Shown here in pieces: positions 199-11,072 of a stretch of 64,000 nt of DNA. Below the pieces are notes generated by a model that was given only the letters and a program-made list of their open reading frames with translations, was not told the origin of the DNA and ran no database searches. This DNA is from Acidithiobacillus sp. (lineage in GTDB: Bacteria; Pseudomonadota; Gammaproteobacteria; Acidithiobacillales; Acidithiobacillaceae), in NCBI GenBank assembly GCA_028697715.1, contig JAQVDS010000007.1:1-64000 (forward strand), written 5' to 3'. The stretch's first letter is position 1, and the number at the start of each line of letters is the position of its first letter. The position numbers and the translations under genes were made by a program.

Positions 199-1365
199 AT
201 GCAGGTGCTGATCGTCCCCGACCACTTCAAGGGTTGTCTGACGGCGGGCGAGGCCGCTGCCGCCATGCAAGCGGGTTTTTGTGACATATTCCCCGATTGG
301 CAGTATCAGCGCTTGCCCCTTGCCGATGGCGGCGAGGGTACCCTGGATCTGCTTTTGCAGGTACTACCGGGAACACGGGTCGCGACCGTAGTGCACGATC
401 CACTTGGTCGCGAGATCCAAGCACACATTGGTATCGTCGACGGTGGTCACACCGCCATCCTCGAGATGGCGCAAGCTAGCGGCCTGCTGCTTTTGGATGC
501 CAAGGAGAGAGATCCGTTGCGCACCGCAAGCACAGGCACCGGCGAGATGATTCGTGCCGCGCTCGATCAAGGTTGTCAAAAAATCGTGATGGGCATTGGA
601 GGAAGCGCAAGCAATGATGGCGGCATGGGCCTACTCTCGGCCTTGGGAATTCGCTTTTACGATGTCGAGGGGCAAGTCCTGCCCCCCTGCGGCGCCGCCC
701 TGGCGCAAGTGCGTTCCATCGACGCTGGTCGTCTCGACGAGCGTTTGCAGAACTGCGGTGTTGAGATCATCTGCGACGTCGATAGCCCCCTGCTGGGAGA
801 CTCCGGCGCGACGCGGATGTTCGGCCCGCAAAAGGGAGCCGACCAGATTGCGATTGAAGTGCTGGAAAGCGGTATGAAAAATTTCGCGGACTGCATTGAG
901 CACAGTATCGGCCGAGACATCCGTCACATCCCGGGCAGTGGTGCCGCCGGTGGCGTGGGTGCCGCCTGCCTCGCCTTCCTGGGTGCCCGATTGCGTCCTG
1001 GCATCGACAGCATTGCCGATCTCATCGATCTCGATGAAAAAATCTGCGCCGCCGACTTGGTTCTCACCGGGGAAGGCCGCATCGACGCCCAGACCATTCG
1101 CGGCAAGACGATTGCGGGTATCGCCAAACGCTGCCAGCGCCTAGGGAAGCCGCTGATTGTCCTGGCCGGATCGCGCTCCGGCGAGACCGATGTGTTCCGG
1201 GAGCTGGGGGTGGATGTGATTCTCACCAGTCTTCCTCGCCTGGGAGAAGAGACCGAGCTATTCCGGGAGGGAGCCGATCACTTGCGCGAGACAGCGCGGA
1301 ATACGGCGGCACTGCTACGCTTGGGTGGGCGACTGTCTCTCACCAGCGCCCAAATTTTCGGGTAA
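199..1365 (+). CDS. glxK: Glycerate kinase (GlxK/GarK type)
   Basis: A 388-residue protein of the type I glycerate kinase family, which phosphorylates D-glycerate to 2-phosphoglycerate with ATP and feeds glyoxylate-derived carbon into glycolysis. The family signatures are all present: the VPDHFKG start, PLADGGEGT near residue 40, the MGIGGSASNDGGMG glycine-rich block near residue 130, and LTGEGRIDAQT near residue 290. The length is usual for the family. The ATG follows a weak GGAAA. The 3' end overlaps the convergent glcF by 51 bases. With glcDEF next door, it is the plausible end point of a glycolate to glyoxylate to glycerate route. The carboligase and tartronate semialdehyde reductase that the classical route needs are not visible here. 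Confidence 0.93.
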   Translation: MQVLIVPDHFKGCLTAGEAAAAMQAGFCDIFPDWQYQRLPLADGGEGTLDLLLQVLPGTRVATVVHDPLGREIQAHIGIVDGGHTAILEMAQASGLLLLDAKERDPLRTASTGTGEMIRAALDQGCQKIVMGIGGSASNDGGMGLLSALGIRFYDVEGQVLPPCGAALAQVRSIDAGRLDERLQNCGVEIICDVDSPLLGDSGATRMFGPQKGADQIAIEVLESGMKNFADCIEHSIGRDIRHIPGSGAAGGVGAACLAFLGARLRPGIDSIADLIDLDEKICAADLVLTGEGRIDAQTIRGKTIAGIAKRCQRLGKPLIVLAGSRSGETDVFRELGVDVILTSLPRLGEETELFREGADHLRETARNTAALLRLGGRLSLTSAQIFG

Positions 1366-2580
1366 GGCGTCGGCCAACAGTTCTAGCCAGTGTCGCACGG
1401 GCACAGCTGCCTCTTGCTGTAAGTGCAGCTGACAACCCACATTGGCGGTGGCAATGCAATCGGGCGCTTTTGCCTCCAGACAGGATAACTTGCGCTCGCG
1501 CAACTCCTTTGCGAGATCGGGCTGTAGCAGGGAGTAACTGCCAGCCGAACCACAACAGAGGTGAGCGTCCGCCACCGGTACCAGATCATAGCCAACGCGC
1601 TGCAACAGGGTTTCAATTTTTCCAGATATTCTCTGGGCATGCTGCAACGAGCAGGGAGAATGGAAGGCTACCTTCCTCTGGTGGGGAGCAAAGCTGGGAA
1701 ATTCAAATTTTTCTGCGAGCAGCCACTCGCCGGGATCACGAGCCAATTCGGCAATGCGCCGGGCCTTTTCGGCGTAGGCGGGATCATGCTGCAAGGCTTG
1801 GCCATATTCCTTGACCATTGCCCCACAGCCGCTGGCACTCACGAGAATGGCCCGCGCGCCCTGCTCTATCCAGGGCCACCAGGCGTCGATATTACGCCGC
1901 ATGAAGCCGAGCGCCTCCTCTTCCGCACTCAGATGCAAGCTGAGGGCACCACAGCAGCCGGCCGCGGCGGGAACCCGCCAGGGAATTTGCAGGTAATCGA
2001 GAATCTTCTGCAACGCAAGATTGGTGGCCGGCGTGCTGACACTTTGCACGCAACCTGCCAGCAACAGCACCCGAGCTTGCTCGGAACCCTGGTGATTCGT
2101 CGCAGCGGTCGACGCAGGGCAGTCGGGAATCCTTCGCGCCCAGTCCTCTCGCAGCACCTCCTTGACCCGTTGCGCGATCTGCAAGAATGGGCGCAGGCGC
2201 TGTGGATACGGGATGATGCTACGCAACAACGCGCGCTGCAGGCGCTCACTTGCCGGTCGACCGAGATGCGGCTCCAGATTGCGGCGGCCAATCTCCACCA
2301 GGCGTGCGTAGCGCACACCGGAGGGACAGGTCGTTTCGCAGGCGCGACAGAGCAAACAGCGATCCAGATGGGTCAGGCTTTCACTGCTGGTCGGCGCCCC
2401 TGCCAGAAACTCCTTGATGAGATAGATGCGTCCGCGCGGCCCATCGAGCTCGTCGCCCAGGATCTGATAGGTAGGACAAGTAGCCGTGCAGAAACCGCAA
2501 TGTACGCAGCTACGCAAAATCGCCTTGGCCTCGATCATATCCTCGTCATTGTGGAAATTCGGGGCGATCTCACATTGCAT
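1315..2580 (-). CDS. glcF: Glycolate oxidase iron-sulfur subunit GlcF
   Basis: A 421-residue Fe-S subunit of the membrane-associated glycolate oxidase (GlcDEF), passing electrons from the flavin subunits toward the quinone pool. Two 4Fe-4S motifs lie near the N-terminus: C25-x2-C28-x2-C31-x3-C35-P, and a second CLLCRACETTCP block near residue 75. The C-terminal half carries CCG-type motifs (AAGCCGALSLH and HLCCGSAGSYS), typical of GlcF and heterodisulfide-reductase-like subunits. It is the last gene of the minus-strand glc operon, 8 bases after glcE. Its 3' end runs 51 bases into the convergent glycerate kinase gene. Confidence 0.93.
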   Translation of the reverse strand: MQCEIAPNFHNDEDMIEAKAILRSCVHCGFCTATCPTYQILGDELDGPRGRIYLIKEFLAGAPTSSESLTHLDRCLLCRACETTCPSGVRYARLVEIGRRNLEPHLGRPASERLQRALLRSIIPYPQRLRPFLQIAQRVKEVLREDWARRIPDCPASTAATNHQGSEQARVLLLAGCVQSVSTPATNLALQKILDYLQIPWRVPAAAGCCGALSLHLSAEEEALGFMRRNIDAWWPWIEQGARAILVSASGCGAMVKEYGQALQHDPAYAEKARRIAELARDPGEWLLAEKFEFPSFAPHQRKVAFHSPCSLQHAQRISGKIETLLQRVGYDLVPVADAHLCCGSAGSYSLLQPDLAKELRERKLSCLEAKAPDCIATANVGCQLHLQQEAAVPVRHWLELLADALPENLGAGERQSPTQA

Positions 2581-2588
2581 TTTTCACC

Positions 2589-3650
2589 TCACAAATCCGC
2601 ATAGAGGCGGCCAGGATTGAGAATGTGCCGTGGATCCATGGCGTCTTTGACGCGTCCGTGCAAGATACGAAGAGGCTCAGACAGTGGAGGTAGGGGATGC
2701 GGGTTCGGTGCGCCCCGATACTGAATGGCATAGCCATTTCGACTGGCCGTCTGCGCGCGGATCTCTTCCGCACTGGCATCGCCGCGCAGCCAACGGATAC
2801 TGCCACCCCATTCCAACAGTTGCGGCAATTCCATCAGTACAGGCGGGGTACCGGTTGGCAGTGCCAGGCGCCACAGGGCTGATCCCGGAGCAAAAAATGG
2901 AAGTTGTTGATCCCGTAGCTGCGCCCAGAACTGTGTTGCTTCGGCGGGCAGGAGTAGATCCCCGCCCACGCACGCGCGTAGACCGGCAAGGGCGGACTCC
3001 GCGCCAGAAAAACGCAGATAGAGTTGCCCGTCCATCCAGGCAGAGGCGCTCAAGGGGATCGGCTGGGCCTCCCAACGCTGCATTTCTTTGATTGCCGCGG
3101 CCATTTGGCGCTCCTGCACGAAGGTCATGTGCCGCGCCGGGAGGGGCAAGACCTTGAGACTGAGTTCGAGCAATACCCCAAGGCTACCCTGGGCGCCCAC
3201 CATCAGCCGCGAAAGATCGTAGCCGGCCACGTTCTTCATGACGTGCCCACCAAAGCGCAGATCTTGCCCGCGCCCATCCAGGATTCGTACCCCCAGTAGG
3301 TGGTCGCGCGCGGAACCGGCGTACGGTCGCGCCGGGCCGGAAAAGCCGCAGGCGACAACCCCACCAATGGTAGAGTCTTCGCCATGACAGGGCGGCTCAA
3401 AGGCCAAGGTCTGTCCCTGCCCGGCAAGGGTTTCCTGCAGTTCGCGCAACCGAGTTCCGGCGCGCACCGTCACATAAAGCTCCGCCGGTTGGTAATCGAC
3501 AATCCCGCTATGTTCGCGCAGATCGAGTTCGGCGTCGGCGTCTACCGGACGACCATAAAAAGACTTGGTAGTACCTGCACGAATACGCAGTGGGCGCTGG
3601 GCGGCATAGGCATCCTGGACCTGCTCCTGCAAGCGCCCAGTGATATCCAT
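2589..3650 (-). CDS. glcE: Glycolate oxidase FAD-binding subunit GlcE
   Basis: A 353-residue FAD-linked subunit of glycolate oxidase. The FAD_binding_4 core is seen in RIRAGTTKSFYG near the N-terminus and in the EPPCHGEDSTIGGVVACGFSG block near residue 100. The open frame extends upstream to 3719, but that part lies inside glcD and looks like noncoding frame. The ATG at 3650 sits one base after the glcD stop (TGAGATG), which argues for translational coupling. It is shorter than GlcD and lacks most of the C-terminal domain, as usual for GlcE. Confidence 0.92.
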   Translation of the reverse strand: MDITGRLQEQVQDAYAAQRPLRIRAGTTKSFYGRPVDADAELDLREHSGIVDYQPAELYVTVRAGTRLRELQETLAGQGQTLAFEPPCHGEDSTIGGVVACGFSGPARPYAGSARDHLLGVRILDGRGQDLRFGGHVMKNVAGYDLSRLMVGAQGSLGVLLELSLKVLPLPARHMTFVQERQMAAAIKEMQRWEAQPIPLSASAWMDGQLYLRFSGAESALAGLRACVGGDLLLPAEATQFWAQLRDQQLPFFAPGSALWRLALPTGTPPVLMELPQLLEWGGSIRWLRGDASAEEIRAQTASRNGYAIQYRGAPNPHPLPPLSEPLRILHGRVKDAMDPRHILNPGRLYADL

Positions 3651-3651
3651 C

Positions 3652-5127
3652 TCAAAAGCGCTCCAGCTCGGGAAATGGCAGGACGCCCCCATGCACATGC
3701 ATGGCCCCCAACTCGGCACAACGGTGCAGGGTCGGTATGGCTTTTCCGGGGTTCAGGCGTCCTTCGGGATCAAAGGCTCCCTTGATCCGATGCATGGTCT
3801 CCAGCTCTGCAGCGGAAAACTGTACACACATGCTATCCAATTTCTCCACCCCTACCCCGTGTTCTCCGGTGATGCTGCCGCCTACCTCCACGCACAGGGC
3901 AAGGATCCGCTGACCAAAAGACTCCGCGGCAGCAATCTGCCCCGCTGCATTGGCATCGTAGAGAATCAGAGGATGCAGATTGCCATCGCCAGCGTGGAAG
4001 ACGTTCGCTACTGCGAGCCCGATTTCCTCCGACCATCGGGCGATCTGCTCCAGGACCTCAGCCAGGCGCCCGCGCGGGATGGTGCCGTCCATACAGTAAT
4101 AATCCGGCGCCATACGGCCCACAGCAGGGAAAGCCGCCTTACGTCCTTTCCAGAGCAGGGCACGGGTATCCGGGTCTCGGGCTACGCGGATGCTGTCCGC
4201 CCCTTGGCGGCGCAGAATCTCCTCGACCAAAGCAACACGTTCCACCAATTCCTCCGCACTCCCATCGAGTTCACAGAGCAAAATAGCAGCAGCATCGCGC
4301 GGGTAGCCGGCATGCACAAAATCTTCGGCCGCCTGGATGGCCAAGCGATCCATCATCTCCAGTCCGGCAGGGATGATGCCAGCAGCGATAATGGCACTGA
4401 CGGCATCCGCGGCAAGGCTGAGCTCGGCAAAGGCGGCCAGCAGGACTACGGTGTTTTCGGGGACAGGCAGCAGCCGTACCGTGACTTCCACCACGATACC
4501 CAGTAACCCTTCGGAACCGATGAACAAGGCGAGGAGATCATAGCCGGGTACATCCGGCGTCAGTCCACCGAGATGAAGGACTTCTCCATCGGCAGTGAGT
4601 ACCTCCAAGGCGAGGACATTATGTACCGTCAGTCCATACTTGAGACAATGCACGCCACCCGAATTTTCCGCCACATTTCCACCAATACTACAGGCAATCT
4701 GCGAAGAGGGATCGGGGGCATAATAGAAGCCAAAGGGTCGCACCGCCTCGCTGATGGCCAGATTGCGCACCCCCGGCTGGACGCGAGCAGTCCGATTTTC
4801 CAGATCGATATCCAGGATGCGATTCATCCGCGCCAAAGATAAAAGCACCGCGCCTGCCACCGGCCGCGCACCCCCGGAGAGTCCGGTACCGGCTCCGCGC
4901 GGAACGACCGGAATCTGATATTGCCGACACAGGCGCAGAAGTGTCTGTACCTCCTCGCGATCCTGCGGCAGAACCACGCATAGGGGCAGTTCCCGCAATA
5001 CCGAAAGCCCGTCACACTCGTAGGGTTGCAAGGATTCCCGGCCACTGCGCACGCGCTCGGCAGGCAGGGCCGCGGCCAGCGCCCGCAGAAAATCCTGCTC
5101 TGCCGGGGTATGCGTAGCCTCTTCCAT
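3652..5127 (-). CDS. glcD: Glycolate oxidase catalytic FAD subunit GlcD
   Basis: A 491-residue FAD-linked oxidase subunit that oxidises glycolate to glyoxylate. It carries the PCMH-type FAD site (VPRGAGTGLSGGARP, then IACSIGGNVAENSGGVHCLKYG) and the C-terminal FAD-linked oxidase domain, ending GEHGVGVEKLD and GRLNPGKAIP. The frame is open to 5259, but the ATG at 5127 lies three bases after the stop of the upstream kinase gene and gives the normal family length, so I chose it. It is the third gene from the 3' end of the five-gene operon. Confidence 0.95.
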   Translation of the reverse strand: MEEATHTPAEQDFLRALAAALPAERVRSGRESLQPYECDGLSVLRELPLCVVLPQDREEVQTLLRLCRQYQIPVVPRGAGTGLSGGARPVAGAVLLSLARMNRILDIDLENRTARVQPGVRNLAISEAVRPFGFYYAPDPSSQIACSIGGNVAENSGGVHCLKYGLTVHNVLALEVLTADGEVLHLGGLTPDVPGYDLLALFIGSEGLLGIVVEVTVRLLPVPENTVVLLAAFAELSLAADAVSAIIAAGIIPAGLEMMDRLAIQAAEDFVHAGYPRDAAAILLCELDGSAEELVERVALVEEILRRQGADSIRVARDPDTRALLWKGRKAAFPAVGRMAPDYYCMDGTIPRGRLAEVLEQIARWSEEIGLAVANVFHAGDGNLHPLILYDANAAGQIAAAESFGQRILALCVEVGGSITGEHGVGVEKLDSMCVQFSAAELETMHRIKGAFDPEGRLNPGKAIPTLHRCAELGAMHVHGGVLPFPELERF

Positions 5128-5129
5128 GG

Positions 5130-6461
5130 TCAGGACTCTCCGTGCAGGCGGCGACGCGCCAAGGCAAGGGCATCCGCATCGCCGACATTGCCCGGGAAAA
5201 TCACCACGGGCAGTGCCGGAAACTGCGGATGCTCCGCAGGACATTGCAGCACCGAACAACCCGGCAGGATCTGCCCCAAGACCCGGGCCTGACGCAAGGC
5301 CAACCCATGGCTCAGCACGTCATTGGAAGTGATACCGCCCTTGCTGATCAAAAATCCCAGGTCTGCAGGCATGGCCTGTAAGGCACGCATCAGGAGTGCG
5401 GATACCGCCACCCCAAAGGCAAGGCGCGTGTCTTGATCCGGAAATTGGCGTTCGACGCGGCTGGTGTAGAGCACAATGTCCTTGCCGCCGGCGTGGATGG
5501 CTTCTGCCTGTTGCCGGATTTCCGCGAGCTGCGCATCCCCCGCCGCGCCCTGACAGGCATCGACATCCACCTCGATCCCTTGCAGATCCGGTTCCGCCAA
5601 GAGGCGTTCTAGCTGTTCCGTCGTCTTGCGCACGTGTGAACCAACCAGGATCAGACCAGGACGGTTAGCGCGCACCCAGCGGTACATTTCCTCTGCCGGA
5701 ACCGGCTGCGGGGGCAAGTCAGCGAGCGCCGTCAGCAGACTGGCGGCACTGCGAAAGAGAAAGCGTTTTCCTTGCGTTACGGCCTGTTTGACGTCGCGGG
5801 CGAAGGCCGCCAGATCCTCTGGCTTTTCGGCATCTACGACCACGCAGACATTGCCCTGCAAAGTCAGCAGGCGCGGCAGACAACCTGCATGCAGTTCTGG
5901 CAAGGATATCCGCTGAACGCTGGAGGCGGGAATCCGGCCCTGGGTCTTTTCCGCGACGTAATCGGGGAGGTAACTGTGTTGGTAGGCAAAGACCGAATCG
6001 CGGGCAAATTCGGTCTCATGCGCGGGGATCTCCCGCCCGTTCTGACGTACGTAGTGTGTGCCATCGCGGGTAATCCGCCCGCCCTCAAAAAAGGCGGGTA
6101 CCAGAAAATGGGCATCGAAAGGCCCGAGAACCTCGGCCAGCACATCCGTTTCCAAGGGATAATGACCGCGCAGGGTAGAGTCCGAACGACTGACGAGAAG
6201 GGGCGGCGGACCCTCCGCATCGCTTTGCGCCAGCACCGTACGTAGATTCTCCGCAATTTCCCGCGTCACCCGCGCCGCCTCCGCCGCCGTCATCCCCCGA
6301 CTGTTGCTCAGGATAAAGCAGAGCGGTGATGGGTCCGCCAGCCCCTCGACCAAGGTCTGCACGTCCCAGCGCAGGAGCAGGGGACAGGAGTGCACCGTCT
6401 GCGAGCCGGTCGGGTCGTCATCGATGACGATAATTTTGCTGCTCGCCTCACCCATTTTCAC
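5130..6461 (-). CDS. DUF1537 four-carbon acid-sugar kinase family protein
   Basis: A 443-residue member of the DUF1537 kinase family, whose characterised members (OtnK, DtnK, LtnK) phosphorylate 3-oxo-tetronate or tetronates at O4. Family marks are the N-terminal IDDDPTGSQTVH, SRSDSTLRGHYP near residue 92, and the C-terminal FLISKGGITSNDVLSHGL and VVIFPGNVGDADALALA, which form the nucleotide-binding part. The usual partners of this family (PdxA2-type dehydrogenase, OtnC aldolase/decarboxylase) are absent. Instead it lies between a phosphoketolase-like enzyme (9-base gap) and glcD (2-base gap). The substrate is therefore unknown; a C3 or C4 sugar acid linked to glycolate metabolism is my inference. 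An alternative start is the ATG two codons in. Confidence 0.85.
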   Translation of the reverse strand: MKMGEASSKIIVIDDDPTGSQTVHSCPLLLRWDVQTLVEGLADPSPLCFILSNSRGMTAAEAARVTREIAENLRTVLAQSDAEGPPPLLVSRSDSTLRGHYPLETDVLAEVLGPFDAHFLVPAFFEGGRITRDGTHYVRQNGREIPAHETEFARDSVFAYQHSYLPDYVAEKTQGRIPASSVQRISLPELHAGCLPRLLTLQGNVCVVVDAEKPEDLAAFARDVKQAVTQGKRFLFRSAASLLTALADLPPQPVPAEEMYRWVRANRPGLILVGSHVRKTTEQLERLLAEPDLQGIEVDVDACQGAAGDAQLAEIRQQAEAIHAGGKDIVLYTSRVERQFPDQDTRLAFGVAVSALLMRALQAMPADLGFLISKGGITSNDVLSHGLALRQARVLGQILPGCSVLQCPAEHPQFPALPVVIFPGNVGDADALALARRRLHGES

Positions 6462-6470
6462 CGCCCCAGT

Positions 6471-8684
6471 TCAGGCCGACAAGGCCTGTACCCTAGCCAC
6501 GATGGCCGCGCTGGTCAGCCCATTGAATGCCATGAGCTCGCCCGCACTTGCCGTGGTTTCACCACGACGCCACGCCAGGATATCACGATGCTGGGCACGG
6601 CTACGCAGAAAGACCGGCTCCAGCGGCGCCGATCCGCCGCCGCTGATACCTAACAGGATCTCACCAGCAAACAACGCATAAAATTCGGCATCCGGCAGGA
6701 AATCTCGATCCGGTTCCGCCACGGTGTCGACCGCCACATCACTCTCCCGGTAGAGCTGGCGCGGATTGAGCACACTGACGATGCGCACCCCGTAGCCCTG
6801 CGCCGCCAGCTCGTCGCCTGCGGCAAAAACCGGCTGCAGAACCATATCTCCGGTGACCGCCAGGGTTACCGTTGCCCGCGTGCCCGTGCTTTCGTGCAAC
6901 AGTACCGCACCCCGCCGGATCGCCATCCGCGCAGTCGCCATATCCAGGTGAACGGGCAACGGGCTCTTGGAGGCAATGATCACCATCACCTTGTTCTGGC
7001 TCTCTACCGCATATTCGTAGGCGGCCTGCGCCGCATTGGCATCGCAGGGGTAGAGCAGAAAGACATTGCCATTGCGCATCTGCGCGGCAAAATAGTTCTC
7101 GATTTCGGGACGCTGATGGGTCCAGCCGTTCCGCCCTTGCTCCAGGGCACCTGCGGTGAACATGCAAACCACCGAAGGCGTCGGCCGCCGTAATTCCGCC
7201 ATCGCCTGCCCCACAGTCTGCACGATAGGCCAGCCGTTGATGGCAAAGGATTCGTACGACAACCAGAGGGAGCGACCGCCAAACAAGGCCAAGCCCGCGG
7301 CAAGACCGGCGCAGGCATCCTCGTTGAGCGGTTCATAGACCTGGCCGTTGGGCGTCTGGTTGTAGAGCGGGTCTTCCGTGGGATGGCGAATCTTCAGGGC
7401 ATCGTTGATGTTTTTCATCGCTGAAGCCTCGTTACCGTCGGCATTGGTCACCACAAAACGCCGATCCTGCTGGCCGAGCCAAGCCACCAGTGCGCCGAAG
7501 GCCGTAGCTGGCACCACCTGCTCGCCCACAGCGAAATCCTGCATTGGGAAGGAACCCAATGGCGCTAGGTCAAGAATCGTCTCCGTGACCACCGTCTGCG
7601 CGGCGGGGCCACCACCGGCGCGGCGGGCATTTTCCCGCACCAGAGCCCAGGCCTTTGGCGCCAGCGCCAGACGCTGCAAAGCGGCGTGGATCTCGGGGGA
7701 GTCCATAGTATCCTTGGGATACAGATTGTGGGATTTCGCCCCCGTGACATGCACGCCAGCGCCCTTGAGCTGCTTGAGAATGACGGCGGTGTGGCGCCCC
7801 TGCAAGGCCGAGTCTGCCGCCTTGGCCGTTGCCGCGAGCACTGCCTGCATGAAAGCGAGGCGCTGCGCGAGGGAAAATTTGGACGAATCTACATAGGGCC
7901 CAGACTGACTGGCGTCGTCAAAATCCTTGGCGTCGATCAGGATGACTTCATCGAAGTCATGCGCCTTCCAGTAGGCAATCATCTCGGCATTGCTCATGCG
8001 CGAGACCATGGAGTGGTGCTCCTGACTGAAGCCATTCCAGACCAGGATGGGCAGATAGTTGGTGACCTGCGGATAGGCAAAATGGAAGTGCTTCATGCTG
8101 CTCAGCACATAGGGTTCACCAAAGCCGCCGTCACCGATGGTGACGGGAAACAGGGTACCCGGATGCAACAGCGCTCCCGCCATAGCAAAGTGCTGCCCCT
8201 GCCCGAGCGGCCCCGCCGGTGCTAGGAGACCTGGGATAGCGCCGGAGAGATGCCCCAGTAGGCCGTGGCGCTCGCGAAAACGTGCCATGAAATCGCTCAT
8301 GTTCTGGATCTGCATGGCCTCCAGAGAACCATCGAGAAACATCGCGCTGTAGAATCCTGGCGCATGATGCCCTACTTCAGTCACGATATTGGTGTGTCCG
8401 AGCATGACCAAAGCCGCATAGATATCCGCGCTGGAGGCAAATCCCCCAGGGTGTCCGGACGACTTGGCGGCACAGACCTGCAGGGTGCAGTAACGCAGGG
8501 CGTCAGCGAGCAACAGGGTCTGATAGACGGCACTTTCGTCGGCGGGATCAGGAATCGCCCGCGACCCTTCCCGGATGACTGCTTCGCTTCCCAAACGGTC
8601 AAATTCTGGCCAAGCCTCGCCGTAGCAAAGCATGCCAGCGCAAAAATCGGGGGCGTGGGCGGGCAATGAAGGTACTTGTGTCAT
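6471..8684 (-). CDS. Phosphoketolase/transketolase-like ThDP-dependent enzyme
   Basis: A 737-residue ThDP enzyme. The ThDP/metal motif begins IGDGGFGEPYV and ends LPILVWNG about 30 residues on, a form closer to phosphoketolase (LPILHLNG) than to transketolase. The ERHGLLGHLSGAIPG and AGPLGQGQHFAMAGA stretches are also phosphoketolase-like. The C-terminal half has a LSYESFAINGWPIVQT block followed by a pyrimidine-binding-like domain. It is shorter than classical Xfp (about 790-830 residues) and lacks that family's usual N-terminus. Databases often label similar proteins transketolase or xylulose-5-phosphate 3-epimerase. It is the first gene of the glc operon, so a role in making or breaking C-C bonds around glyoxylate or glycolaldehyde units is plausible but unproven. 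Confidence 0.75.
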   Translation of the reverse strand: MTQVPSLPAHAPDFCAGMLCYGEAWPEFDRLGSEAVIREGSRAIPDPADESAVYQTLLLADALRYCTLQVCAAKSSGHPGGFASSADIYAALVMLGHTNIVTEVGHHAPGFYSAMFLDGSLEAMQIQNMSDFMARFRERHGLLGHLSGAIPGLLAPAGPLGQGQHFAMAGALLHPGTLFPVTIGDGGFGEPYVLSSMKHFHFAYPQVTNYLPILVWNGFSQEHHSMVSRMSNAEMIAYWKAHDFDEVILIDAKDFDDASQSGPYVDSSKFSLAQRLAFMQAVLAATAKAADSALQGRHTAVILKQLKGAGVHVTGAKSHNLYPKDTMDSPEIHAALQRLALAPKAWALVRENARRAGGGPAAQTVVTETILDLAPLGSFPMQDFAVGEQVVPATAFGALVAWLGQQDRRFVVTNADGNEASAMKNINDALKIRHPTEDPLYNQTPNGQVYEPLNEDACAGLAAGLALFGGRSLWLSYESFAINGWPIVQTVGQAMAELRRPTPSVVCMFTAGALEQGRNGWTHQRPEIENYFAAQMRNGNVFLLYPCDANAAQAAYEYAVESQNKVMVIIASKSPLPVHLDMATARMAIRRGAVLLHESTGTRATVTLAVTGDMVLQPVFAAGDELAAQGYGVRIVSVLNPRQLYRESDVAVDTVAEPDRDFLPDAEFYALFAGEILLGISGGGSAPLEPVFLRSRAQHRDILAWRRGETTASAGELMAFNGLTSAAIVARVQALSA

Positions 8685-8718: not shown

Positions 8719-8747
8719 AGGGTAGGAGAGATATGCATTTTCCGCAA
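8719..8747 (-). promoter_or_regulatory. Candidate promoter of the ThDP enzyme-glc operon
   Basis: On the minus strand, TTGCGG (8747-8742) and TACCCT (8724-8719) are separated by exactly 17 bases. The start codon at 8684 would follow a leader of about 28 bases. The -35 hexamer lies inside the putative IclR operator. The same TTGCGGAAA-N14-TACYCT layout recurs upstream of the MFS permease at 10860. Confidence 0.5.
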
Positions 8748-8754
8748 TAAGGTA
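8740..8754. promoter_or_regulatory. Candidate IclR-family operator, site 1
   Basis: TTCCGCAATAAGGTA is an imperfect dyad of the form TTCCG-N5-CGGAA. It lies in the 83-base gap between the divergent iclR-type gene and the glc operon. Two relatives occur upstream of the MFS gene, one of them a perfect dyad. It overlaps the -35 of the glc operon promoter, the expected place for repression. Confidence 0.5.
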
Positions 8755-8767
8755 TATATTCCACATT

Positions 8768-9568
8768 ATGAAAAATACGGATCCCATCAGTCGCAGTTCC
8801 GTGCAGGTCATTGATCGTTTGCGCCTGTTGCTGGACGCGCTTGCCGAAGAAGGTGGCAGCACTTCGTTAAAAGTGCTGTCTGCCTGTACTGGCCTTGCCC
8901 CATCCTCTGCCTTTCGCATTCTGGCGTCTGCCCAGGAAAATGGTTTAGTCGAGCGGGATCTGCAGGGGAATTATTGCTTCGGCCCACGCCTGCTCGACTG
9001 GAGCCGCTTGGTCCACAGTCGCGCCGATCTCCGTGCCCTCGCACGGCCAGCCATGGCGTGGTTGCGGGACCAGATCGGGGAAACTGTAAATCTGACCATC
9101 CAACAGAAGGACGAGGTACTATATATCGAGCGTGTCCTCTCTCCCCGAATGATGCGCGTGGAACAGGTCATTGGCTCACATGCCCCCCTGCACTGCACCG
9201 CAGTAGGCAAATGGATGCTGGCTGAGCATGGCTACGACTGGGTACGAGGCTACGCAGAACGCACCGGGTTACCTGCGCTCACCTCGCACTCCATCACCCG
9301 GCTCGCTAGCCTGTGGGATACCGTACAGCAAGCTCAGAAAGACGGGTATGCGCGCGATGACGAGGAAGCCGAGATCGGCGTTGGCTGTCTCGGCGTCCTC
9401 GTTCGTACTACCCTTCCGTGCCTGGTGGGTCTGAGCATTTCTTCGCCCATTCACCGTCGCAGAGAAGAGTGGATACCTCTGCTGCAAGAGGCCGCCCGGC
9501 GCATCGAGCAACGCTTACAGGGACTTACCGTCATCCTCGATCTCGACGCACCAGTACCGACTCAATGA
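8768..9568 (+). CDS. IclR-family transcriptional regulator
   Basis: A 266-residue regulator. The N-terminal winged helix-turn-helix (about residues 12-75: VIDRLRLLLDALAEEGG… LAPSSAFRILASAQENGLVERD) is followed by the IclR effector domain, with the ADLRALARPAMAWLRDQIGETVNL and HCTAVGKWMLAE signatures. It is divergent from the glc operon and converges on the MFS gene with a 7-base 3' overlap. By position it most likely controls both. The effector is unknown; glycolate or glyoxylate is a reasonable guess. Confidence 0.88.
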   Translation: MKNTDPISRSSVQVIDRLRLLLDALAEEGGSTSLKVLSACTGLAPSSAFRILASAQENGLVERDLQGNYCFGPRLLDWSRLVHSRADLRALARPAMAWLRDQIGETVNLTIQQKDEVLYIERVLSPRMMRVEQVIGSHAPLHCTAVGKWMLAEHGYDWVRGYAERTGLPALTSHSITRLASLWDTVQQAQKDGYARDDEEAEIGVGCLGVLVRTTLPCLVGLSISSPIHRRREEWIPLLQEAARRIEQRLQGLTVILDLDAPVPTQ

Positions 9569-10860
9569 CTGAGGCCGGCGGCACAACTCGCAGAACCAAC
9601 CGCTTCCCCCTCGATTTCTATGGGCAGGCGCGTCTGGCTCGCCAGATAGTTCACGCCGAGCCCCACCGCGGCGAGCCCCACCATCACCCAAAACACCCCA
9701 TCCCAGCCAACGGTGTGAATGATAATCGACGATACCACCGGACCGATAGCACTCACCGAGTTTGAGATGACGCCGATAGCGAAGGCACCTGCACCCATCG
9801 TCGCAACCGGAAAGATATTACAGGGCGAGGCCCAGTAATTGGGTGGCGTTGCCATCGTGCACGCCACGACCAACGCCGACAGGAGCAGCAAGGGATAGGA
9901 GATCGGTGCAATGTAAAGAATCATCAAGGCACCGACAATGATGAACACATTTGCCAAACTGATCACACCAAGGCGAGCGTTCACGAAATTCCGGTGCGTA
10001 TTGTCCCGTTTTGCCCAGTAATCACCGAGCAGCGCACCGAGTACAGCAGCTGCAAAACCCATCAATCCCCAAATAAACATTACGTTACCAGTTTCTTCTG
10101 GCTTATAACCTAGATGATAGGCATAGATGGGCAAAAATCCGCCAATCGTAAAAAGCGTCCAGTTATTGGGAATTTGCACGATACCCATGATCCAGGTCAT
10201 GGGATAAGACCACAACTTATGCTTGCGGTGCTCGGCCTTGGATTTCTTGATTCCCTCGGCATGACTGCTGGCATCTCGGGCAAAGACAAAGTACACCGCC
10301 GCACCGGCGATCATGATCGCCGCGGTAATGAAATAGACGACCTGCCAGCCCATAGATGCGAGATCTCCGGTAATCACTCCACCAACGGCACCGCCCAGGG
10401 TAATGGCACCCAACATCGCTGCGAGCGAGATTCCACGTTGACTGGAGCGAAACCAACCCGCAAGTTGCAGGGAAAACAGGGCGATCATCATGATCATGAG
10501 CCCCTGCAAAAATCGAAATACGATCAGCAGCACCAAAGACTGCGTGATTGGCATGAGAATTGGGATGAGAATCTGCGGAACGATCAAGAAGAGCTGCGCA
10601 ACCAAGACTCCCAGGCGAATCCGAGTATCAAATATCCCACCATGACCGAGAAAAAAAGCGATAAATAAACCCACCGAAAAGGCATCGATGCCGGCAGCAG
10701 ATAGCGACTGCACAGAAACATGCATCGCCGCCGCCATGGCTGGCGCCGATACGCCGAATGAGGTGAGAGAGATGAAACTGGTGGTCATGATGACCCCAGT
10801 GATTGCCGCCATGACCCAACGATAGGGAGATGAATATTCAGGCATTTCTTGTATTGACAT
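9562..10860 (-). CDS. MFS transporter, probably a glycolate or related acid permease
   Basis: A 432-residue protein with about 12 hydrophobic segments and a hydrophilic central loop with the ARDASSHAEGIKKSKAEHRK stretch near residue 200. The open frame reaches 10884, but the ATG at 10860 follows a strong AGGAGGA ribosome-binding site with 5-base spacing, so I chose it. The 212-base upstream gap holds a promoter and two candidate IclR operators matching the one ahead of the glc operon. This links the permease to glycolate metabolism by regulation rather than by sequence. The substrate is not readable from the protein. Confidence 0.82.
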   Translation of the reverse strand: MSIQEMPEYSSPYRWVMAAITGVIMTTSFISLTSFGVSAPAMAAAMHVSVQSLSAAGIDAFSVGLFIAFFLGHGGIFDTRIRLGVLVAQLFLIVPQILIPILMPITQSLVLLIVFRFLQGLMIMMIALFSLQLAGWFRSSQRGISLAAMLGAITLGGAVGGVITGDLASMGWQVVYFITAAIMIAGAAVYFVFARDASSHAEGIKKSKAEHRKHKLWSYPMTWIMGIVQIPNNWTLFTIGGFLPIYAYHLGYKPEETGNVMFIWGLMGFAAAVLGALLGDYWAKRDNTHRNFVNARLGVISLANVFIIVGALMILYIAPISYPLLLLSALVVACTMATPPNYWASPCNIFPVATMGAGAFAIGVISNSVSAIGPVVSSIIIHTVGWDGVFWVMVGLAAVGLGVNYLASQTRLPIEIEGEAVGSASCAAGLSH

Positions 10861-10981
10861 AGTTATCCTCCTGACCAACATCAAATTACCTCAAAAGAGG
10901 CAGAAAGCCGCAAGTCAGGCACATCATAATTTACATATATAGCAATTTACTGAATAGATTTACCCTCTGCGACTGTATTGG

Positions 10982-11010
10982 AGAGTAGACCAGCACATTT
11001 CTTTCCGCAA
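10982..11010 (-). promoter_or_regulatory. Candidate promoter of the MFS permease gene
   Basis: TTGCGG (11010-11005, minus strand) and TACTCT (10987-10982) with a 17-base spacer, the same architecture as the glc operon promoter. The predicted leader is about 115 bases. The -35 element overlaps operator site 2. Confidence 0.5.
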
Positions 11011-11036
11011 TAAGATATTGTTTCCGCGATACGGAA
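11003..11036. promoter_or_regulatory. Candidate IclR-family operators, sites 2 and 3
   Basis: TTCCGCAATAAGATA at 11003-11017 and TTCCGCGATACGGAA at 11022-11036, starting 19 bases apart. The second is a perfect TTCCG-N5-CGGAA dyad, a form typical of IclR-family operators. Together with site 1 they give the shared pattern TTCCGCRATA followed by a variable right half. Confidence 0.55.
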
Positions 11037-11072
11037 TTTATAAGGATAAATGAAATAGAATAAAATAAAAAG

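Follow-up and report, generated by a model that had tools for sequence, protein, structure and literature searches.

Little is known about what chemolithoautotrophs, for example iron and sulfur oxidisers, do with the oxygenation product of Rubisco. The glycerate pathway, encoded by gcl, hyi, tsr and a glycerate kinase gene in Cupriavidus necator, starts from the glycolate dehydrogenase GlcDEF and brings the carbon back to the Calvin cycle. The malate cycle is a further fate of glyoxylate in chemolithoautotrophs (Claassens 2020, PMC7486775). The survey published there recorded malate synthase in none of 9 Acidithiobacillales and likewise in 0% of the Halothiobacillales, and the fate of glyoxylate in Acidithiobacillales was not assigned (PMC7486775). 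A third related system is the L-threonate pathway (LtnD, 2-OtnK, 2-OtnC; LtnD-OtnI-OtnK-OtnC in Escherichia coli). 3-Oxotetronate is a known substrate of a DUF1537 kinase in E. coli, where OtnK acts as the kinase of 3-oxo-threonate and OtnC converts the phosphorylated acid by decarboxylation to dihydroxyacetone phosphate (DHAP) (PMC12540250). Here we analyse an operon in a stretch of 64,000 nucleotides (nt) of Acidithiobacillus sp., called the window below, in which the glcDEF genes follow the genes of a thiamine diphosphate (ThDP)-dependent enzyme and a DUF1537 kinase. The window is part of contig C36 of a 2.46 Mb genome.

The operon is likely to encode a glyoxylate-using salvage module. We propose, giving it about an even chance, that it represents an undescribed and widespread form of phosphoglycolate salvage in Calvin-cycle chemolithoautotrophs and purple sulfur bacteria, in which a ThDP ketol-transferase, the DUF1537 kinase and a decarboxylation to DHAP would together replace the glycerate pathway in a redox-neutral manner. 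If the proposal is true, Rubisco-bearing bacteria from at least 22 of the families sampled would use a new enzyme family in a new salvage route, which would also be a candidate photorespiratory bypass for engineering. A description of the operon was not found in the open literature searched; subscription papers and preprints lay outside this search, and priority is unproven.

Gene order and conservation of the ThDP-DUF1537 pair

All positions are numbered within the window, and genome-wide questions were addressed by family searches. The genes of the operon are given below in the order of transcription, with the evidence in brackets.

6471-8684, minus strand: ThDP-dependent enzyme, 737 aa, transketolase/phosphoketolase superfamily, new clade, proposed C2 transfer to glyoxylate (profiles, tree, structure model)
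5130-6461, minus strand: four-carbon acid sugar kinase with DUF1537 (SBD_N/NBD_C) domains, DDDPTG...KGGITS subfamily, proposed to act on 3-oxotetronate (Pfam, synteny)
3652-5127, minus strand: glcD, glycolate dehydrogenase FAD subunit, ATG at 5127 (Pfam, NCBIfam)
2589-3650, minus strand: glcE, glycolate dehydrogenase FAD-binding subunit (Pfam, NCBIfam)
1315-2580, minus strand: glcF, glycolate dehydrogenase iron-sulfur subunit (Pfam, NCBIfam)

The gaps are 9, 2, 1 and 8 bases when computed with the ATG starts of glcD and glcE, and so an earlier note on this DNA, made from the letters alone, was right in placing five genes on one strand with gaps of 9 bases or less. An alternative TTG start of glcD at 5259 would give a longer protein and an overlap with the kinase gene. 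All three GlcDEF subunits were recognised by curated models. GlcE and GlcF exceeded the NCBIfam equivalog cut-offs, and GlcD scored 757 and 538 bits, below two strict cut-offs of 897 and 568, with GlcD still by far the best family. Oxidation of glycolate to glyoxylate by the predicted GlcDEF is well supported by the family assignment. The SBD_N and NBD_C domains of the kinase (193.6 and 128.7 bits) were both above the Pfam gathering thresholds, and the DUF1537 domain occurs as a single copy in the genome.

A scan of 84,980 species genomes gave at least 80 matches to the ThDP enzyme, and the counts of loci below refer to the 80 named matches listed plus the window, 81 in total. The nearest named record among the matches listed was Acidithiobacillus sp. 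YTS05, with a ThDP enzyme 97% identical. Carriers include Acidithiobacillus, Gallionella, Sideroxydans, Thiobacillus, Sulfuriferula, Mariprofundus ferrooxydans PV-1 and Nitrotoga, and further Halothiobacillus, Thiocapsa, Allochromatium, Thiorhodococcus and others; the module is not specific to acidophiles, the setting in which the earlier note had placed it. Clustering of open reading frames (ORFs) placed the DUF1537 kinase gene directly downstream of the ThDP gene, with both on one strand, in 77 of the 81 loci. Three of the other four loci end with the contig, and the fourth, L133, an apparent exception due to ORF picking, has the kinase by tblastn, so that the pair was found in 78/78 loci with room on the contig. 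This gene order is far beyond chance.

The rest of the neighbourhood varied more. Genes for glcD/E stood beside the pair in 42 of the 81 loci, and LutABC-type genes were sometimes present at loci lacking glcDEF. Malate synthase G (5 loci), a class II aldolase (5), tartronate semialdehyde reductase (7), an aminotransferase (3), ABC or TRAP transporters and a GlcG-like protein were also found as neighbours, and at locus L081 a single row of genes encodes the ThDP enzyme, the kinase, the aldolase and GlcDEF together with tartronate semialdehyde reductase and malate synthase. In Gallionella-type clusters (L062, L065, L066, L072, L076 and L105) the module runs into a LivK-type ABC transporter, which in some of these clusters is followed by a methylmalonate-semialdehyde-dehydrogenase-like gene and tartronate semialdehyde reductase. 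Candidatus Nitrotoga sp. M5 has two consecutive DUF1537 genes after the ThDP enzyme (L121:11257-14357).

Co-occurrence with Rubisco and with other glyoxylate enzymes

Two sets of genomes were searched for Rubisco and for the enzymes of the known routes. The first was a class sample of 321 genomes spread over families, in which the ThDP enzyme was present in 29 genomes of 22 families. Rubisco was found in 28 of these 29 carriers and in 125 of the 292 non-carriers (Fisher p = 4e-9, by a test that ignores relatedness), and the sole Rubisco-negative carrier is an 86% complete genome. The second was a named set of 76 genomes; four of these are Acidithiobacillales lacking the ThDP gene and PV-1 was counted twice, which leaves 71 distinct carriers. 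Rubisco was present in 73 of the 76 and in 68 of the 71. The genome of the window itself has two strong Rubisco large-subunit genes, on contigs C5 and C43. A single-chromosome metagenome-assembled genome (G352, locus L095) has the module, and Rubisco was not found in its 2.4 Mb; catabolic use, gene loss or an incomplete record could account for this.

Glyoxylate carboligase (gcl) was above the cut-off in 0 of the 76 named genomes, that of the window included, and thus in 0/71 carriers; the strongest matches to the model reached 363 bits at most, where the cut-off is 711, and such scores would be expected of acetolactate synthase. Since only 4 of the 321 genomes of the class sample have gcl at all, the carriers show absence of the gene and not a proven exclusion. 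Tartronate semialdehyde reductase in the genome of the window reached at best 128.8 bits against a cut-off of 340.75, and it was above the cut-off in 0 of the 24 Acidithiobacillales searched. Across 75 genomes it was above the cut-off in 20, none of them Acidithiobacillales and all without gcl. The earlier note had suggested surveying carriers for the absence of both genes: the absence of gcl held throughout and both are absent here, whereas that of the reductase did not extend to all carriers. Its broader idea, that a CO2 fixer salvages phosphoglycolate through an alternative branch, is supported by these absences and by the co-occurrence with Rubisco. In comparison with the glycerate pathway, carriers have no gcl and Acidithiobacillales no tsr, and the proposed route would be free of NADH and yield DHAP. 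As for the malate cycle, malate synthase is absent from the surveyed Acidithiobacillales (PMC7486775), and these bacteria are here found to be also without glyoxylate carboligase.

The lack of gcl could also mean that the ThDP enzyme is itself a glyoxylate carboligase analogue, joining two glyoxylates (one of them decarboxylated) to tartronate semialdehyde, which would be reduced and phosphorylated as in the glycerate route. The reductase in 20 of 75 genomes, sometimes inside the cluster, the glycerate kinase gene adjoining the operon in Acidithiobacillus, and the rebuilt anion-binding positions of the ThDP enzyme described below, which permit an acid donor, all agree with this. However, no reductase passed the cut-off in the 24 Acidithiobacillales, and in the class sample only 4 of the 29 carriers have it, as do 8 of the 125 non-carriers with Rubisco; the glycerate kinase is adjacent in only 4 of 81 loci; and the invariant DUF1537 partner and the aldolase are left unexplained. 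We regard such an analogue as improbable. As a general route, the combination of a gcl analogue with tartronate semialdehyde reductase was rejected, the reductase not being tied to the module.

The ThDP enzyme, the kinase and the reactions proposed for them

The ThDP enzyme has the three-domain ThDP fold, the GDG...N motif and the catalytic Glu and His of its superfamily. The Pfam domains XFP and XFP_N matched above gathering, but the best NCBIfam phosphoketolase score was 118 bits against a cut-off of 777, and the transketolase model gave 62 bits against 488. In a tree of 42 sequences the family formed one clade (support 100/97) apart from the phosphoketolases (99/96) and transketolases (100/100), and the genome of the window also encodes a canonical phosphoketolase and a transketolase. 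Family members are extremely conserved, with a mean column identity of 78% over 43 sequences. The structure predicted by AlphaFold (pLDDT 83, pTM 0.85) matched phosphoketolases best, with TM values of about 0.73-0.76 by query length, and transketolases next (0.60-0.66), at about 18% identity. Confidence was low in the active-site loops 144-159, 186-189, 314-317 and 512-524, and therefore no geometric argument was drawn from the model. A search of plasmids for the ThDP enzyme returned distant phosphoketolases only. The earlier description of the enzyme as phosphoketolase-like is thus retained as a distant kinship (118 bits against 777, about 18% identity), and not as membership, since the family is a clade of its own. 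A second divergent phosphoketolase-like clade, of about 785-850 aa, was seen in L005, L010, L025 and L030, with the motif HTWENGKNEQSHQDP in L005; it adjoins the canonical phosphoketolases in the tree on a long branch.

Residues were compared with those of phosphoketolase and transketolase by a computed alignment, with the residue numbers and roles of the known enzymes. The fold, ThDP site and catalytic positions are those of phosphoketolase (XFP; Bifidobacterium 3AHC, 3AI7). Kept and invariant are H78, H106, H145, H319, E455, Y477, Q516, N519, H523 and K573, which correspond to phosphoketolase H64, H97, H142, H320, E479, Y501, Q546, N549, H553 and K605. In contrast, S440 and R442 are replaced by A420 and A422, and H548 and D555 by R518 and R525, both arginines being invariant across the family, so that of the phosphate-site residues S440, R442, H548 and K605 only the last is retained. 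The protein is also shorter than phosphoketolase, at about 18-23% identity. With transketolase it has the C2-transfer superfamily in common, and its GHPG and GPLGQG motifs are transketolase-like, whereas transketolase R358, S385 and H461, which bind the substrate phosphate, are not kept, D469 is replaced by Asn and the identity is about 18%. The protein reads as a working enzyme with a rebuilt anion pocket, and residues alone leave its substrates unfixed. A plain phosphoketolase or transketolase was rejected on scores, tree and residues. A true phosphoketolase variant would convert a ketose phosphate to acetyl phosphate, and malate synthase would join acetyl-CoA made from this to glyoxylate. 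The kept equivalents of H142, Y501, Q546 and N549 speak for such an enzyme, as do malate synthase G in 5 loci and, in the vicinity of a few loci, genes for pyruvate carboxylase or malic enzyme. The loss of S440, R442 and H548, the canonical phosphoketolase already present in the genome, malate synthase in 0 of 9 Acidithiobacillales (PMC7486775) and a DUF1537 kinase without explanation speak against it, and we place it a step below the carboligase analogue, as quite improbable.

Among proteins of annotated plasmids, the closest relatives of the kinase show 35-40% identity to it along the full length and have the DDDPTG and KGGITS motifs in common with it. Their genes are accompanied by that of a class II F_bP_aldolase in Deinococcus, Rhodococcus and Arthrobacter, and by that of a dehydrogenase, mostly of the LtnD/GarR type, in Deinococcus, Arthrobacter, Priestia and Ligilactobacillus; the three-step L-threonate pathway, which includes 2-OtnK and 2-OtnC, has this layout (PMC12540250). 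A DUF1537 protein of the PdxA-partnered type, beside one relative in Rhodococcus, gave no match to the kinase at E 1e-5. In four carriers (L081, L089, L098 and L102) an aldolase gene follows directly 3' of the kinase gene, with gaps of 4 to 13 bases or an overlap, and its product is 32-40% identical to the plasmid aldolase partners. The earlier note, which gave PdxA2- or OtnC-type proteins as the partners of characterised DUF1537 kinases and saw none here, can be refined on this point: DUF1537 kinases of this type pair with F_bP_aldolase, not with PdxA2 or the E. coli-type OtnC. The module and the L-threonate pathway have the kinase motifs in common and, in some loci, an aldolase partner of the same family. 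They differ in that the module has no LtnD or OtnI, and in that the C4 acid would be built from glyoxylate by the ThDP enzyme and not taken up.

With a kinase subfamily that is also that of L-threonate operons, and with ABC or TRAP transporters in some clusters, the module could instead degrade an external four-carbon sugar acid, the ThDP enzyme working in reverse to cleave an oxo-tetronate into glyoxylate and a C2 unit. Against this, the module is tied to Rubisco across 22 families and is carried by specialist autotrophs, GlcDEF produces glyoxylate and does not consume it, and an L-threonate dehydrogenase above the cut-off was not found among the neighbours tested. This is the least probable of the explanations considered.

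In the salvage route that we propose, GlcDEF would oxidise glycolate, derived from the phosphoglycolate formed by Rubisco, to glyoxylate. The ThDP enzyme would then transfer the dihydroxyethyl unit of a Calvin-cycle ketose phosphate, for example xylulose 5-phosphate, to glyoxylate, giving 3-oxotetronate and glyceraldehyde 3-phosphate. Such a C2 transfer gives a C4 oxo acid with a terminal CH2OH group, and so fits the kind of substrate used by the DUF1537 kinase family. The kinase, to judge from its subfamily and operon, would convert 3-oxotetronate to the 4-phosphate, a beta-keto acid that would lose CO2 to give DHAP. Where a class II aldolase-type enzyme is encoded after the kinase, it may catalyse the decarboxylation; elsewhere, as in Acidithiobacillus, this step may be spontaneous or due to a housekeeping enzyme. 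In sum, glyoxylate, ketose phosphate and ATP would yield two triose phosphates and CO2, with no need for NAD(P)H or ammonia. Because glyoxylate is equal in redox terms to one formaldehyde-level carbon (CH2O) plus CO2, the route would be redox-neutral, requiring ATP and no reductant, which would suit organisms that make NADH by costly reverse electron flow. The earlier idea of a ThDP enzyme that links C2 units and a kinase that phosphorylates what they form is compatible with this scheme; of the C3 or C4 product then envisaged, the C4 alternative is chemically consistent and the C3 is not. By such an undescribed route, the ThDP-DUF1537 pair may recycle the toxic compound that Rubisco forms as a by-product.

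In its exact form the reaction is proposed on the grounds of chemistry and synteny, and we give it about an even chance. The same salvage logic could operate with another C2 donor, such as hydroxypyruvate, or could deliver another C4 product to the kinase. The altered sugar-phosphate binding positions and a kinase nearest to the 2-oxotetronate type favour such a variant, but the cluster has no conserved gene that would supply hydroxypyruvate, and a glyoxylate-type aminotransferase occurs in only 3 loci. Of the alternatives this is the first in rank, and still unlikely.

Several observations weigh against the route with a ketose phosphate donor and DHAP as its product, the weak points being the C2 donor and the last step in Acidithiobacillus. 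The lost equivalents of S440 and R442 could mean that the donor is something other than a sugar phosphate. The closest kin of the kinase subfamily are 2-oxotetronate kinases, while the proposed product is the 3-oxo isomer. The family search found no dedicated decarboxylase in the genome of the window: its single F_bP_aldolase sits in a glycolytic region, and one strong Aldolase_II match adjoins a Rubisco-like protein (weak PF00016; G000:C3:4063-6102), the two being probably a methionine salvage pair. The proposed route loses half of the glyoxylate carbon, against a quarter in the glycerate pathway. Four Acidithiobacillales (G304, G319, G322 and G326) have neither the ThDP enzyme nor gcl and keep Rubisco, and the module is thus not essential for all; 82% of the Rubisco-positive genomes of the class sample are also without it.

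Regulator, operator and neighbouring genes

The operon is flanked by the following genes and predicted sites, of which the regulator and the MFS transporter do not appear in the earlier note.

199-1365, plus strand: glycerate kinase, convergent to the operon, a lineage-specific neighbour (TIGR00045, 447 bits)
8739-8755, plus strand: operator-like site TTTCCGCAATAAGGTAT, the second of a pair whose starts are 19 bases apart (sequence reading)
8758-8774, no strand assigned: palindromic predicted operator, consensus ATTTCACANTGTGAAAT, between the regulator and ThDP genes, over the predicted start codon of the regulator (palindrome scan)
8768-9568, plus strand: IclR-family regulator, divergent from the ThDP gene (profiles; present in 65 of 81 loci)
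9562-10884, minus strand: MFS transporter (profiles)
11002-11037, no strand assigned: pair of operator-like sites upstream of the MFS gene, with a spacing of 19 bases and two mismatches each (consensus scan)

The glycerate kinase faces the operon, as had been noted before, and the 3' ends of its gene and glcF overlap by 51 bases. It was rejected as a member of the module, since it adjoins only 4 of the 81 loci, all of the Acidithiobacillus group.

An IclR gene is divergent from the ThDP operon in 65 of the 81 loci. Its best NCBIfam match was BhcR, with 131 bits, below the cut-off of 350. Regulators of the BhcR kind respond to glyoxylate, and by analogy the IclR protein is likely to be a glyoxylate-responsive regulator of the operon and of itself. 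The 17-base palindrome ATTTCACANTGTGAAAT was found, with at least 12 of 16 positions matching, in 59 of the 65 upstream regions with IclR, whereas shuffled sequences would give about 0.9; as the regions scored were also the source of the consensus, the excess is somewhat optimistic, but the gap is too large to be explained by that alone. Scans for sigma-70 promoters and terminators gave results at chance level.

Across the window the operator consensus had 6 matches, against 1.2 expected. The pair of sites before the MFS gene has nearly the same sequence and the same 19-base spacing as the pair before the ThDP operon, and these matching tandem sites suggest one regulator for both. Possibly under that same regulator, the MFS transporter is a candidate for the transport of a small acid of the hydroxy or oxo type.

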